Translations under genes and position numbers: made by a program
NCBI GenBank assembly: GCA_007136585.1
Contig: SLGR01000213.1
Location: forward strand, 1-8,056
Length of the DNA stretch: 8,056 nucleotides
Direction of reading: 5' to 3'
From: Candidatus Sumerlaeota bacterium
GTDB taxonomy: Bacteria > CG03 > SLGR01
Shown: piece after piece, positions 2,175-7,511 of the stretch
Numbering within the stretch: the stretch's first letter is position 1
Layout: every line of letters begins with the position of its first letter
Notes under the pieces: generated by a model
Told to the model about the DNA's origin: nothing
The model's database searches: none
What the model saw: only the letters and a program-made list of their open reading frames with translations

Positions 2175-2204
2175 TTGACACCGGTTTCCCGGTTTTGCTA
2201 TAAA
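2175..2204 (+). promoter_or_regulatory. Predicted sigma70-type promoter of nikR
   Basis: A perfect -35 (TTGACA, 2175-2180) and a near-consensus -10 (TATAAA, 2199-2204) are separated by 18 nt, predicting a start near 2211. This is the best promoter in the window. The spacer contains a small inverted repeat, ACCGG-TTTC-CCGGT (2180-2193), followed by TTTT, which might also act as a weak terminator for the upstream gene. The predicted NikR operator covers the -10 and the start point. Confidence 0.7.
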
Positions 2205-2221
2205 TCTGAAATTCGTAACAC
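2195..2221 (+). promoter_or_regulatory. Predicted NikR operator 1, nikR autoregulation
   Basis: TTGCTAT, 13 nt, GTAACAC. The right half is an exact match to the half-site of the NikR operator described for metal-reducing deltaproteobacteria (GTGTTAC-N13/14-GTAACAC). The left half matches 4 of 7 positions. Extended inward, the strong arm reads AATTCGTAACAC, the exact reverse complement of the strong arm of operator 2. The site covers the -10 and the start point of the nikR promoter and ends next to the Shine-Dalgarno, as expected for nickel-dependent self-repression. Confidence 0.65.
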
Positions 2222-2227: not shown

Positions 2228-2232
2228 CGATG

Positions 2233-2646
2233 ATGTCAGATTTAACAAGGTTCGGCGTATCATTAGAAAAAGCCCTGCTTGAGGAGTTCGACAGAGCCCT
2301 TAAGGAGCAGAATTATTCTACCCGATCAAAGGCGATAGGAGATCTAATAAGGCAGAGCCTGGCAGAACGCAGATGGAAAAAGGGCAAGGCTTCCGCCGGG
2401 GCCATTACTCTGGTCTATAACCACCATAAGAAAGAACTCTTAAACAAATTAATCTCAATACAGCACGATTACCACAATCTTATTATATCTTCTCAGCATG
2501 TGCATCTTGATCATGACCAGTGCCTGGAAATTATTGCGGTAAAGGGAAACCCCGGGGAGCTGGAATCCCTGTATCTTAAACTCAAATCCGAGAAAGGGGT
2601 GGGGTACGCCTCTCTCACATCCGCTATGGCGGGAAAGATAAAGTAA
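2233..2646 (+). CDS. nikR: NikR, nickel-responsive transcriptional regulator
   Basis: Protein of 137 aa, the usual NikR length. The N-terminal ribbon-helix-helix DNA-binding domain covers about residues 1-45 (beta strand LTRFGVSL, then two helices with the family's YSTRSKAIGDLIR). The C-terminal ACT-like ligand domain covers about 55-135. The four square-planar nickel ligands known from E. coli NikR (H76, H87, H89, C95) align with H78, H89, H91 and C97 here, in the segments IQHDYH and QHVHLDHDQCLEI. It should therefore bind Ni(II) tightly and act as a nickel-dependent repressor. E30 of the E. coli second metal site is Lys here, while the following Asp is kept. Two matching operators, before its own gene and before the receptor gene, support self-regulation and control of the downstream uptake genes. 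Confidence 0.95.
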   Translation: MSDLTRFGVSLEKALLEEFDRALKEQNYSTRSKAIGDLIRQSLAERRWKKGKASAGAITLVYNHHKKELLNKLISIQHDYHNLIISSQHVHLDHDQCLEIIAVKGNPGELESLYLKLKSEKGVGYASLTSAMAGKIK

Positions 2647-2663
2647 TATTTTTTTGGATATTT

Positions 2664-2690
2664 GTGTTACGAATTAAGGAAAAGTAATAC
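2664..2690 (+). promoter_or_regulatory. Predicted NikR operator 2, upstream of the TonB-dependent receptor
   Basis: GTGTTAC (2664-2670), 13 nt, GTAATAC (2684-2690): one mismatch from the ideal GTGTTAC-N13-GTAACAC dyad. Its first 12 nt (GTGTTACGAATT) are identical, in inverse orientation, to the strong arm of operator 1, and the spacing is the same. The site begins 17 nt after the nikR stop and ends 1 nt before the receptor ATG, so it encloses the receptor's Shine-Dalgarno. Confidence 0.8.
2676..2680 (+). promoter_or_regulatory. Shine-Dalgarno of the TonB-dependent receptor, inside the NikR operator
   Basis: AAGGA lies 11 nt before the ATG at 2692, between the two arms of the predicted operator. 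It supports 2692 as the start over the in-frame TTG at 2662, which would place the operator inside coding sequence and put ten hydrophilic residues before the signal peptide. Confidence 0.6.
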
Positions 2691-2691
2691 T

Positions 2692-4500
2692 ATGAAGACA
2701 AAAATCAAACTTCTGCTGGCGGTCTTCACATTGGCGGCTTTCACTAACGCGTTACCGGAGAATCCGGGCCTGGACCTGGGGGTTCTCATCGTTACCCCCG
2801 CCGGGATTACAAGCGGAGTGGAAGGCCTCCCCTTTTCGGTGAGCGTTATAGGAAGGCAGGAAATAGAAAGAGAAAATATGTTTTCCTACAGCAGGGTACT
2901 TGATTCGGTTGAGGGAGTGCATATACACAGAACCGGTGAGTTCGGAAGATCGGATATATCTGTAAGAGGGCTTGGAGACAGGGGAAGAAAAGTAATGGTG
3001 CTGGTGGACGGAAGGCCCACAAAAATGGGTCTTTTCGGGTGCACCATAACCCAGTCGCTTCCGGTTGATAATATTCAGAGGGTGGAGGTCATAAGAGGTC
3101 CGGCCTCGGTTCTCTACGGCTCCGATGCAATGGGAGGAGCGGTAAACATAGTTACACAAAAAGCCCGGAAGAAGGGTTTCCGTACAGAACTCCGTTCAGC
3201 GCTGGGGTCATTCAATACCAGAGAGCTCAGGCTCACTCACGGAGGAAGCACAGGCAGGCACAGCTACCTGGTTACCGCAGGAGGGGCCTGCTCCGACGGC
3301 TTCAGGGATAATTCCTCTTATAATTCGGAAAACTATTCTATCAGGTTTAACTCTATCGTAACTGACAGTTCAAAACTGGGCTTTAATATCAGGTACTACC
3401 AGGGAACCAAGGAGGAGCCGGCCCTTCTGGGCGAAGACCCGGCGCTTGCCGACAGATGGGAGACCTATAAAAGGGGCGCGGCAGAAATAGATTACGAATT
3501 AACTACTGAGAACTCACTGATAGGTTTAAAGGCCTACAGGAATTTTGGAGATCACGAATTCTCCGACGGGTATGAGTCAACCGATTTTACAAACGGACTG
3601 ATCCTTAACGCGGTCTCCCGAGTCTTTGGCAATAACAGGCTCATATCCGGAGCCGAGTTCAGAGAGCAGGCCGGGGAGTTTGAAAACAACAATTTTAATA
3701 AGAGAGAATACGCTCTTTACCTTCTTTATGAACAAAGGTTTTCCGACCGGATGAGCCTCTTTATGGGTGGAAGGTATAATATAGATGAGGTAACAGATAA
3801 CGTATTTACTACACATCTCGGAGCTACCTTCGGTCTTACAGAGAGGACCCGGTTTCGAATCTCAAGAAGCGAGGGCTTCAGGTCCCCGCAGATAAACGAC
3901 CTCTATATGTACCCGCCATCTAACGAGGATCTTAAACCCGAGACGGCCGTAAACTACGAGATCGGAGTAAGACACCTTATCACAGATAAGATCAATTTGG
4001 ATATCACCTTATACAGAACGATAGGAAAGGATATTATTGAGAGAGTCCCGAACGACACCCCACCGCCGCTACTGATATTTCAAAACACCGGAGACTTTGA
4101 ATTTACGGGCGCCGAGCTTGGCCTCAACGCGGCCCTAAGCGAGATTTCCGGGGCAAGGCTGTCATATACCTATATGGACCCGGGCAAGCACACTGCCGGA
4201 AGACCCGGAAACAAAGCGGTAGCTAAATTATTCTTTACTCCGGGAGATCTCTATTTAGATATAGGAGGCGAGTTCGTATCTTCATATTATGCCGCAAATA
4301 ACAGTGAAGATAAGATCGATGATTTCTTTATTATGAGAGCAAAGACGAGTTATGATATCTTAGAAAACTTAAGAGTCTTTGCCGGGGTTGAGAACATATT
4401 TGACATATCATACAGCATTTACGCCGACCTTCCAGGTGAGTCCGGGGTATATCCAATGCCCGGAAGAAGCTTTACCGGGGGTATCACCTATGCTTTTTAA
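2692..4500 (+). CDS. TonB-dependent outer-membrane receptor, predicted nickel or nickel-chelate uptake
   Basis: Protein of 602 aa, BtuB/CirA-sized. Residues 1-20 are a signal peptide (KIKLLLAVFTLAAFTNA). A TonB-box-like stretch (LGVLIVTPAG, 29-38) precedes the plug domain at about 42-155. The plug has the typical endings: ISVRGLG, VMVLVDGRP, and VEVIRGPASVLYGSDAMGG leading into AVNIVT. The rest is a 22-strand-type barrel with the usual SEGFRSPQINDLY and LKPETAVNYEIGVR segments, ending in an aromatic C-terminal Phe (GGITYAF) for outer-membrane insertion. Transport is powered by TonB-ExbB-ExbD, not encoded here. Substrate is inferred from context: a NikR operator sits directly upstream, and a metal ABC importer follows with an 11-nt overlap. 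Cobalamin remains an alternative by size, but the 45-nt leader is too short for a B12 riboswitch. Confidence 0.92.
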   Translation: MKTKIKLLLAVFTLAAFTNALPENPGLDLGVLIVTPAGITSGVEGLPFSVSVIGRQEIERENMFSYSRVLDSVEGVHIHRTGEFGRSDISVRGLGDRGRKVMVLVDGRPTKMGLFGCTITQSLPVDNIQRVEVIRGPASVLYGSDAMGGAVNIVTQKARKKGFRTELRSALGSFNTRELRLTHGGSTGRHSYLVTAGGACSDGFRDNSSYNSENYSIRFNSIVTDSSKLGFNIRYYQGTKEEPALLGEDPALADRWETYKRGAAEIDYELTTENSLIGLKAYRNFGDHEFSDGYESTDFTNGLILNAVSRVFGNNRLISGAEFREQAGEFENNNFNKREYALYLLYEQRFSDRMSLFMGGRYNIDEVTDNVFTTHLGATFGLTERTRFRISRSEGFRSPQINDLYMYPPSNEDLKPETAVNYEIGVRHLITDKINLDITLYRTIGKDIIERVPNDTPPPLLIFQNTGDFEFTGAELGLNAALSEISGARLSYTYMDPGKHTAGRPGNKAVAKLFFTPGDLYLDIGGEFVSSYYAANNSEDKIDDFFIMRAKTSYDILENLRVFAGVENIFDISYSIYADLPGESGVYPMPGRSFTGGITYAF

Positions 4501-5296
4501 TATTGTAAAAAAACTGCTTATACCGGCAATCATTCTATCCCAGTACGGTTGCGCCTCTCAGGAGTCACACGGTCTTACGGTGGTTGCCTCCACAACGTTG
4601 ATAGGAACAATCCTTGAAGAAATAGGAGAAGACCGCGTGAAGGTCAGTACAATACTCCCCGGGGGAATCTGCCCGGGTCATTTTGATCTTAAACCTTCTG
4701 ATATGAGGGCCTTCAGCGGGGCTCATATGATATTCTACCAGGGGTGGGAGCCTTGGATAAACGGGCTTCTGGACTCCGAAGACGCCCGGGATTCGGAGAA
4801 ACTGAGCATACTTACAGAAGGAAACCTTATGGTTCCGCCCCTACACATAGAAGCGGCGAGAGAGATAGCGGAAATTCTCCGGGGTAAAGACCCGGAAAAC
4901 AGTGCTTACTACACGGAAAACCTGGAAAGGTATATAAAAGAGATACGCGATTCCAAAAGAGAGATACTCGGACGCGCGGAGAGCTTTAAAGGCGTAAGGG
5001 TAGTATCATCCAGACACCAGAAGGCTCTCCTGGCCTGGCTGGGGTTTGAGGTAGTTGCAACGTATAAAAGGGCTGACGATATGTCGCCTTCGGATTATGC
5101 TTCAGTAATACGTATCGCAAGAGAGAAAAATGCAAGGGCGGTGATAGATAACCTTCAGAGCGGGCCGGAGGACGGAAAGATTATTGCAGAAGAGACGGGT
5201 ATACCACAGGCGGCATTATCCAATTTTCCGATTGACGGTTCCTACATCTCAACCTTAAGAAACAATTTTGCTAAACTCGAAACAATAATTAAATAA
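4490..5296 (+). CDS. Metal ABC transporter substrate-binding protein (ZnuA/TroA-like, cluster A-I)
   Basis: Protein of 268 aa that captures metal in the periplasm for the following ABC proteins. The ATG at 4490 is chosen because it opens a signal sequence (MLFNIVKKLLIPAIILSQYG), overlaps the receptor gene by 11 nt, and has GGGGG 8 nt upstream. C21 could be lipidated, but the lipobox (QYGC) is not canonical. The fold is recognisable from VVASTTLIGTILEEIG at 31-46, the long linking helix around 135-165, and the C-lobe from about 168. Candidate metal ligands are H64 in CPGHFDLKPSD, H119 in PPLHIEAAREIAEIL, and H176 in SSRHQKALLAWLGFEV, at the places of the three family histidines. The usual fourth acidic ligand region reads AVIDNLQSG, so D220 or another residue must serve. 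There is no His-rich zinc loop. Zinc or manganese would be the default annotation; NikR context argues for nickel. Confidence 0.88.
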   Translation: MLFNIVKKLLIPAIILSQYGCASQESHGLTVVASTTLIGTILEEIGEDRVKVSTILPGGICPGHFDLKPSDMRAFSGAHMIFYQGWEPWINGLLDSEDARDSEKLSILTEGNLMVPPLHIEAAREIAEILRGKDPENSAYYTENLERYIKEIRDSKREILGRAESFKGVRVVSSRHQKALLAWLGFEVVATYKRADDMSPSDYASVIRIAREKNARAVIDNLQSGPEDGKIIAEETGIPQAALSNFPIDGSYISTLRNNFAKLETIIK

Positions 5297-5304
5297 ACCT
5301 ATAA

Positions 5305-6117
5305 ATGAAGAATAAGGAAAACAACTATAACATTGTGGAGATGAGCGGGGTAAGCGTCCGACACAAGGGCTGCACCGCTATAGATAATATAACCCTTAAT
5401 ATCCGGAAGGGCTCTCTGCTGGCCCTGATAGGACCCAACGGAGCCGGGAAAACCACACTGCTTAACCTGATAAACGGATTCTCGGGGGCAACATCCGGTA
5501 CCGTAAAAGTATTCGGAAGAAAGATAAATAAAAAGACTTCAGGTGAGTTAAGGAAAAGAATCGGATACATCTCTCAGGAAGCCGTGAATGCTCCAAGGGC
5601 GCCGGTCTCGGTATACGAGGCGGTTTCTATAGGAAGGATCGGTAAGCGGGGCCTGCTGAGAAAACTTAAGGAAGAAGACCATAACGCAATAAAAAAGGCC
5701 ATTCATTCCGTTGGCCTTGGCGGCTTTGAGAGCAGACCGGTCGGAAGTCTTTCCGGAGGCGAGAGACAGAAAACAGCCATCGCCCGGGCCCTTTCCCAGC
5801 AGCCGGATATAATGCTGATGGACGAGCCTACAAGCAGCCTGGATCTGAAATCCGTAAGAGAGATCATTAATATCGTTGATGAGATATACAGGGAATATAA
5901 CATTACGGTAATATACGTAACTCACATACTCCAGCACATACCTCCTTCCTGCGGACGCGCAGTAATGCTCAAAAATGGCAGGATAATCTGGTCCGGAAAA
6001 CACAGGGGCTCTTACAGCGAAAAACTCATAATAGAGCTTTACGACCTTCCGGAAACCACTTTAACCGGCGGTGATGAAATCCCCTTCTCCGATAAGAGCA
6101 TCTGCAAATATGTTTGA
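5305..6117 (+). CDS. Metal ABC transporter ATP-binding protein (ZnuC-like)
   Basis: Protein of 270 aa, the ATP-hydrolysing subunit on the cytoplasmic side of the importer. All motifs are present: Walker A GPNGAGKTT (43-51), Q-loop Q91 (GYISQE), signature LSGGERQ (149-155), Walker B IMLMDE (169-174), D-loop SSLD (177-180) and switch H207 (VIYVTH). The ATG at 5305 lies 8 nt after the stop of the binding-protein gene and has no obvious Shine-Dalgarno, so translation probably depends on coupling. The domain needs at least residues 10 onward, so later starts are limited to GTG 5335 or ATG 5341, both poorer. The gene overlaps the permease gene by 8 nt. Nothing in the ATPase itself identifies the metal. 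Confidence 0.95.
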   Translation: MKNKENNYNIVEMSGVSVRHKGCTAIDNITLNIRKGSLLALIGPNGAGKTTLLNLINGFSGATSGTVKVFGRKINKKTSGELRKRIGYISQEAVNAPRAPVSVYEAVSIGRIGKRGLLRKLKEEDHNAIKKAIHSVGLGGFESRPVGSLSGGERQKTAIARALSQQPDIMLMDEPTSSLDLKSVREIINIVDEIYREYNITVIYVTHILQHIPPSCGRAVMLKNGRIIWSGKHRGSYSEKLIIELYDLPETTLTGGDEIPFSDKSICKYV

Positions 6118-6931
6118 TATTCTCAGTTACGGTTTTATGCGAAGAGCCGCGCTTGCTTCGGTTCTGGGGGGAGCAAGCTGCGGAATAGTCGGTGTATGGG
6201 TTATTATGCTTGGGATACCCTTTGTCGGGGTAGCCATGGCCCACGCCGCTTTTGCCGGAGCCCTTCTGGGGCTTTTGATCGGAGTGGACCCGGTCCTTTC
6301 GGGGTTTCTTTTCTGCCTTCTCTCGGCCTCTCTTATCGGACCGGTAGCCGACAGGGGCGATTTTGAACCCAACCTCTCAACAGGAATAATTTTCTCAATC
6401 GTTCTGGGCCTCGCCTTTTTATTTATGGGTCTTATTGAGGGGCCTAAGGCAGAGGCTATGAGATACATCTGGGGCAGTATTCTAACTGTAAGACAGACCG
6501 ATATAAACCTTCTGGCCCTGACAGCGGCTGCCATAGGATCGTTTCTTTTAATTTTCTTTAAGGAAATACTTGCGGTTCTATATGACAGAAGGACAGCAAG
6601 AGCGGCCGGAGTTCCCGATAAAGCAATTTTTTATCTTATACTCTTTCTCTGCGGCGCAACCGTAACTCTTAACCTTAATACGGTGGGAGGAATCCTCATA
6701 TTCAGCCTGGTAATCTCCCCGCCCGCCGCGGCCTACCAGCTGACTTACAGCCTTAAAAAGATGCACCTCATATCTGCAGCTTTCGGAGTAATATCCTGCC
6801 TGCTGGGGCTTGGATTCTCCTATGCCTTCAACCTGCCCTCCGGGGCGATGATAATAATAATTTCCGGACTTATATTCATAATCAGCCTGGTTTTTTCACC
6901 GAAAAGGAGAAAGGTTTATGTCAGAACATAG
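6110..6931 (+). CDS. Metal ABC transporter permease (ZnuB-like)
   Basis: Protein of 273 aa, the inner-membrane channel subunit, with about eight or nine hydrophobic segments (roughly 13-33, 44-58, 61-80, 90-108, 131-151, 171-188, 190-208, 218-240, 244-263). The start MFDILSYGFMRRA fits the family's N-terminus and overlaps the ATPase stop (ATGTTTGA); GTG 6071 and ATG 6074 would add a hydrophilic tail. The cytoplasmic coupling region is YDRRTARAAGVPD (158-170), and TVGGILIFSLVISPPAAA (191-208) is the family's late conserved helix. Relative to the common ZnuB motif GDAxSHAxxPG, residues 40-50 read GVAMAHAAFAG: the Asp is Val and the Pro is Ala, while His45 is kept. This may mark a distinct subgroup. 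It ends in a basic tail and overlaps the methyltransferase gene by 14 nt. Confidence 0.92.
   Translation: MFDILSYGFMRRAALASVLGGASCGIVGVWVIMLGIPFVGVAMAHAAFAGALLGLLIGVDPVLSGFLFCLLSASLIGPVADRGDFEPNLSTGIIFSIVLGLAFLFMGLIEGPKAEAMRYIWGSILTVRQTDINLLALTAAAIGSFLLIFFKEILAVLYDRRTARAAGVPDKAIFYLILFLCGATVTLNLNTVGGILIFSLVISPPAAAYQLTYSLKKMHLISAAFGVISCLLGLGFSYAFNLPSGAMIIIISGLIFIISLVFSPKRRKVYVRT
6904..6909 (+). promoter_or_regulatory. Shine-Dalgarno of the methyltransferase gene
   Basis: AAGGAG lies 8 nt before the ATG at 6918, within the last codons of the permease gene. It sets the start and shows the two genes are translated from one message. Confidence 0.75.
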
Positions 6932-7511
6932 AAAATTCTTTGACTCAATGGCCGGGTCTTGGGACGGTATGATCCCGCCCGGAGAGACCGGACGCCTGGA
7001 TAAAATACTGGACTCTATGAATATTATGCCGGGAGAGTCCGTTCTTGACGCGGGGTGCGGAACTGGGATACTCTTTCCTCTTATAAGGAAAAGGATAGGA
7101 GAAAAAGGAAAGATAACGGGTCTTGATATCTCCCCAGGAATGCTTAAGAAAGCGGAGAAAAAGTTTCCGGGCGAAGCGGAGCTTATAGAGGGTGATGCCG
7201 AATCCATACCTGTTGAGGACGGCGTATTTGACAGGGTAATATGCTTCTCCTCATTCCCCCACTTTAAAGACAGGGAGAGAGCCCTGAAAGAGTTTTACAG
7301 GGTCCTTAAGGAAAACGGAACCCTTCACATAATACATACTTCCTCAAGGGAAGATATCAACAAGCTGCACGCCGCAATAGAAGGCCCGGTAAAAAACGAC
7401 CGTATCCCGGATGACGATACTATGAATAATATTTTCTTATCGGCCGGGTTCGGCGAGGTTTCCGTTATAAACCTTAACAACTCATACCAAGCATCGGCCC
7501 GAAAAGTTTAA
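6918..7511 (+). CDS. Class I SAM-dependent methyltransferase
   Basis: Protein of 197 aa with a UbiE-like Rossmann fold, cytoplasmic. Motif I is VLDAGCGTG (42-50), the acidic residue after strand 2 is D70 in GLDIS, motif II lies around GDAESIPVEDGVFDRV (92-107), and motif III is FYRVLKENGTLHII (126-139). The C-terminal part is distinctive: HTSSREDINKLH (140-151), then IPDDDTM and a closing SAGFGEVSV (175-183). This is short for a UbiE protein and lacks a separate substrate-binding domain. The gene overlaps the permease by 14 nt and closes the operon, so it should be co-produced with the metal importer. The methyl acceptor is unknown; a small metal-binding ligand, a protein residue or a metal(loid) are possibilities without direct evidence. 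Confidence 0.88.
   Translation: MSEHRKFFDSMAGSWDGMIPPGETGRLDKILDSMNIMPGESVLDAGCGTGILFPLIRKRIGEKGKITGLDISPGMLKKAEKKFPGEAELIEGDAESIPVEDGVFDRVICFSSFPHFKDRERALKEFYRVLKENGTLHIIHTSSREDINKLHAAIEGPVKNDRIPDDDTMNNIFLSAGFGEVSVINLNNSYQASARKV

Follow-up and report, generated by a model that had tools for sequence, protein, structure and literature searches.

Nickel is a limiting factor for hydrogenases, CO dehydrogenase/acetyl-CoA synthase and methanogenesis, and to our knowledge the nickel importer of many anaerobes has not yet been identified. The Helicobacter TonB receptors FrpB4, FecA3 and NikH are controlled by NikR and serve for nickel, as is predicted for the receptor described here. They are not known to be encoded together with an ABC importer of cluster A-I, and the likeness drawn here is one of role.

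The NikABCDE transporter of E. coli has NikR control and its presumed substrate in common with the locus studied here, but it is a cluster C peptide/nickel ABC transporter, its subunits are unrelated to those of the locus, and its operator half-sites (GTATGAT) differ. The ECF-type transporters NikMNQO and NikKMLQO of delta-proteobacteria are also unrelated to the ABC importer of the locus, but have the same operator consensus, GTGTTAC-N13-GTAACAC (PMC545781). The consensus was derived in delta-proteobacteria by Rodionov and colleagues as GTGTTAC-[N13/14]-GTAACAC, and sites with reversed half-site orientation were noted in the same study (PMC545781). The ZnuABC, AztABC, YfeABC and PsaABC importers share with the locus the binding-protein fold, the ABC-3 permease, the ATPase and the operon layout. 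The locus differs from them in that the metal ligands are gone, the binding protein belongs to a clade of its own, NikR boxes lead the operon, and no Zur or Mur gene is present in that role in the window (the whole 8,056-nucleotide stretch of DNA analysed). A possible archaeal counterpart, alike in gene neighbourhood, is found in Methanothermobacter, where NikR lies beside a putative ZnuABC; it was read as a zinc system, and a zinc-responsive NikR was proposed (PMC3087415). In M. marburgensis under nickel limitation, NikR1 and candidate transporters rise (PMC12350162). A description of the clade considered below as NikR-regulated was not found in the literature searched, which did not extend to the Rodionov 2006 NikR-regulon survey.

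Gene organization and predicted operator

The following features make up the locus (window coordinates):

2195..2221, + strand: second, weaker site of NikR type, TTGCTAT-N13-GTAACAC, located 5' of nikR, 3/14 mismatches to the consensus, a single strong half-site
2230..2646, + strand: nikR, predicted Ni-responsive ribbon-helix-helix repressor; alternative ATG at 2233, which is the start given in the preliminary description
2664..2690, + strand: predicted NikR operator GTGTTAC-N13-GTAATAC, with one base between it and the receptor ATG
2692..4500, + strand: TonB-dependent outer-membrane receptor, 602 aa, plug and barrel, BtuB/CirA-like
4490..5296, + strand: metal-binding lipoprotein with the cluster A-I (ZnuA/TroA) fold, from a separate clade that lacks the canonical ligands
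5305..6117, + strand: ABC ATPase subunit, PF00005 (ABC_tran)
6110..6931, + strand: ABC-3 permease subunit, ZnuB-type, PF00950 (187 bits)
6918..7511, + strand: class I SAM-dependent methyltransferase (Methyltransf_11), linked to the transporter in one of its two clades

The existence of the operon was confirmed, and its layout agrees with the preliminary description: the same open reading frames, gene order and tight linkage were obtained, with a gap of 45 nt between nikR and the receptor gene, an 11-nt overlap of the receptor and binding-protein genes, an 8-nt gap before the ATPase gene, and overlaps of 8 nt (ATPase/permease) and 14 nt (permease/methyltransferase). Family matches bear out the further claim that outer- and inner-membrane components, a TonB receptor and a Znu-type ABC importer, are encoded in one unit. 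The NikR protein matches NikR_C with 103 bits and the NCBIfam NikR equivalog with 149.8 bits (cut-off 105); it has a ribbon-helix-helix and an ACT-like domain, and all of its Ni ligands (H79, H90, H92, C98) are present. The receptor contains Plug and TonB beta-barrel domains. The binding protein matches the ZnuA family PF01297 with 107 bits, and its start was placed at 4490 instead of at a longer TTG start at 4379: a product beginning at 4490 has a signal peptide and a lipobox (LSQYGC). The transporter subunits thus fall into PF01297, PF00950 and PF00005, not into the SBP_bac_5 and BPD_transp_1 families of NikABCDE.

An operator between nikR and the receptor gene, absent from the preliminary description, is the strongest single item of evidence. 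Scored against the published delta-proteobacterial consensus (PMC545781), the site at 2664-2690 has 1/14 mismatches; it is the best match, and the sole one with no more than one mismatch to GTGTTAC-N13-GTAACAC, in the 1.88-Mb genome. In the window scan for NikR-type sites, shuffled sequences are expected to give 0.09 such sites. The weaker site at 2195-2221 points to possible autoregulation of nikR. A σ70 scan revealed no excess of promoter-like sites near nikR (1 versus 1.3 in shuffles), three weak terminator-like sites were seen in the nikR region, and an Rfam search of the window gave no match. Just 5' of nikR (1629-2156) a 175-aa protein is encoded, with no significant Pfam or NCBIfam match and a weak nucleotidyltransferase-like one (E 0.08); the minus strand at 63-1505 encodes a secreted phospholipase D-like protein with two domains.

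The operator is also present in a related genome from the same family, G001 (contig PWEK01000017.1; Elusimicrobia in the deposited record), which contains an operon of receptor, binding-protein, ATPase, permease and methyltransferase genes, while its nikR is located elsewhere in the genome. The sequence ATGTTAT-N13-GTAACAC lies upstream of this receptor operon. Since the operator is kept without an adjacent nikR, the transporter itself, and not nikR alone, appears to be the target. The G001 genome encodes two hydrogenases and one CODH-type protein.

Distribution of the binding-protein family and of NikR boxes

A scan of 84,980 species genomes, with an alignment of five relatives as a query, revealed 151 relatives of the binding protein. 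The best 80 of the 151 were examined; because similarity to the window decided which were kept, proportions among them do not represent the family as a whole. These 80 come from the bacterial groups Elusimicrobia, WOR-3, FCPU426, Armatimonadetes, Bipolaricaulota/Acetothermia, Atribacteria, Aerophobetes, Clostridia (Moorella, Desulfofundulus, Ammonifex) and Dehalococcoidia, and from several archaeal groups. Phylogenetic analysis, which the preliminary description had proposed together with a count of NikR neighbours, separated the family, with 99% SH-aLRT support, from 14 ZnuA-type proteins, canonical or other, and split it into two large clades; an FmdE-type gene accompanies most members of one, and a methyltransferase gene most members of the other. 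NikR is a neighbour in 23 of ca. 82 distinct loci, in both clades and in bacteria as well as archaea, and its adjacency changes at least ten times on the tree. In the NikRs adjoining the loci, the HHHC ligand set is kept in all 22 sequences aligned. Almost all of the Clostridia and Dehalococcoidia members tested are without NikR. NikR is so common, being present in 9 of 30 control genomes, that its co-occurrence in genomes is by itself weak evidence. A TonB receptor gene lies directly 5' of the binding-protein gene in about ten loci from diderm lineages, and the full gene order of the window is also found in FCPU426 (L054).

To monitor recurrence of the operator, pairs of GTGTTAC half-sites, whatever their orientation, were sought from -250 to +60 of the nikR, receptor, binding-protein and ATPase gene starts of 81 loci. 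At a spacing of 13 bp, 34 loci contained a site with at most two mismatches out of 14, 21 loci with at most one, and 10 with none. The corresponding means for 200 permuted half-sites were 0.35, 0.025 and 0.005 (maximum 11, 2 and 1), and other spacings from 8 to 18 bp yielded 0-7 loci at up to two mismatches. The box was present in 36 of 111 target-gene windows versus 3 of 590 windows of other genes from the same loci. An adjacent nikR is missing in 20 of the 34 box-bearing loci. The box occurred in 30 of 48 cases with NikR in the genome versus 3 of 29 without it, an association that is strong by Fisher's test but carries little weight, since it is not significant with independent pairs (a correction for relatedness). 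We conclude that control of the operon by NikR, as first suggested, is a well supported prediction: the operator at 2664-2690 is kept in a related genome and across phyla, and the H/H/H/C ligands of NikR are intact. Those proposals of the preliminary description that sequence can test were all borne out.

Direct-repeat half-sites, GTGTTAC-N13-GTGTTAC, were observed in L074, L076, L090 and L109 (also L091, L101, L104 and L110), and everted ones in L069, L088 and L097. NikR sites may tolerate every half-site orientation at a fixed spacing.

Binding site and proposed function

The AlphaFold model of the binding protein has the cluster A-I fold (pLDDT 92), and AztC, YfeA and ZnuA are its closest structural matches (Z about 25). 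Alignment with E. coli ZnuA and with the genome's own ZnuA, together with PDB alignment, revealed that none of the four canonical ZnuA/PsaA ligands (His, His, His/Glu, Asp/Glu) is kept: Gly63 stands in for the first His and is followed by His64; the His-rich loop is deleted, and with it the second ligand; Ser occupies the third position, and Asn245 that of the Asp. Outside the search pattern, Q177 (94%), N221 (100%), Q223 (98%) and N245-F246-P247 (98-99%) are conserved in the clade; the invariance of C61-P69 was not used as independent evidence, since it is partly imposed by the pattern. With canonical ligands lost and other residues conserved, the binding site has been rebuilt, and C61, H64, Q177, N221, Q223 and N245 (window numbering) presumably recognise Ni or a Ni complex.

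As anticipated in the preliminary description, annotation as a zinc (or manganese) transporter is likely: in NCBIfam the binding protein comes nearest to manganese or zinc families, but reaches none of their cut-offs by a wide margin (best 53.5 bits versus 485). The motif C-P-[GA]-H-[FY]-D...NLQSG...NFP together with the NikR box provides a means to re-annotate many such "zinc/manganese" transporters. The recurrence of the same transporter with the NikR switch in many bacterial and archaeal phyla suggests that it is probably an overlooked nickel importer filed under zinc/manganese.

The most likely function of the locus, at a probability of about three in four, is nickel import by a NikR-repressed uptake operon. 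Judging from the regulation and from the loss of zinc ligands, the substrate would be the Ni2+ ion, complexed nickel or Ni/Co; cobalt, too, is possible. Sequence establishes the genes, the operator and how it recurs, the separate clade and the missing ligands; we infer repression by NikR, nickel as the metal, its chelated form and the direction of transport. Ni-loaded NikR would repress the operon and, when nickel is scarce, would leave the operator at 2664-2690. The TonB receptor would then carry nickel, probably chelated, through the outer membrane; from there the lipoprotein would pass it to the Znu-type ABC importer for transport across the inner membrane. On balance, we also lean towards the wider view that the family comprises uncharacterised importers of Ni or Ni complexes with a remodelled cluster A-I site, widespread in anaerobic bacteria and archaea, controlled by NikR in many lineages and by some other regulator elsewhere, with an FmdE-type or methyltransferase partner, and a TonB receptor in some diderm lineages. 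The family would provide a testable case of one binding-protein fold changing its metal specificity.

Other metal genes of the host genome were also examined. A [NiFe]-hydrogenase large subunit of the energy-converting type, cut off at a contig end, is encoded, so the nickel enzymes looked for following the preliminary description are represented by a hydrogenase; the sole Prismane-family match, considered as a CODH, was rejected because it resembles the hybrid-cluster protein. ExbB is present. HypA was not found in the 88%-complete assembly. This result, the rejected CODH candidate, the near absence of NikR from the Clostridia and Dehalococcoidia members tested, and the Fur-family and FeoB neighbours described below count against nickel import. 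CbiM/NikM and NicO (NiCoT) transporters were not found in the genome, nor was CbiM or NicO found in most NikR-bearing relatives tested.

Import of cobalt, or of nickel and cobalt indiscriminately, for corrinoid use is improbable. The only full-length PDB matches of the receptor are to BtuB, and a cobalamin riboswitch occurs in 2 of 16 scanned loci (L050 and L066), 6-9 kb from the operon. However, in these 16 loci, from NikR-less Clostridia and Chloroflexi, no riboswitch adjoins the operon and none of cobalamin type leads it; NikR boxes lead it in 34 of the 81 loci scanned for them. It is still less probable that some other compound, for instance a chelated metal or an iron complex, is imported and merely co-regulated by NikR within a nickel-sparing response. 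The putative site is amide-rich and has lost carboxylate/His ligands, Fur-family regulators and FeoB adjoin in some lineages, and predicted NikR targets include genes outside transport, hydAB among them (PMC545781), but the link to NikR and its box spans the two major clades and includes archaeal as well as bacterial loci. A zinc importer with a zinc-sensing NikR homologue, as suggested for Methanothermobacter (PMC3087415), would agree with the Znu-type fold and subunits, but is very unlikely given that the clade keeps none of the four ZnuA ligands, that a separate canonical ZnuABC without a NikR-type box (L026) is encoded elsewhere in the genome, and that the square-planar Ni ligand set is intact in all 22 of the aligned adjacent NikRs.

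Neighbouring genes in other loci

In six Dehalococcoidia/Chloroflexi loci (L055, L073, L077, L079, L096 and L100), a Fur-family regulator gene replaces nikR just upstream of the binding-protein gene. NCBIfam assigns this regulator to none of Fur, PerR and Zur; it could be Fur, Zur, PerR or Nur. A feoB gene is convergent with the operon end in five Bipolaricaulota/Acetothermia loci (L087, L095, L107, L111 and L114).

An FmdE-type gene (PF02663) lies between the binding-protein and ATPase genes in one clade (L024, L070, L075, L078, L080, L099, L101-L104 and others), and a methyltransferase gene at the operon end or start in the other; the two are seldom found side by side and may be alternatives to one another. 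Most FmdE genes adjoin metal transporters, and mixed Zn/Ni was reported in an FmdE site (PMC2954224). In Armatimonadetes-like genomes, a type IV pilin-like gene (FTLIELLVVIAIIAILAAILFPVF) is located between nikR and the binding-protein gene (L060, L074, L076, L091 and L109).
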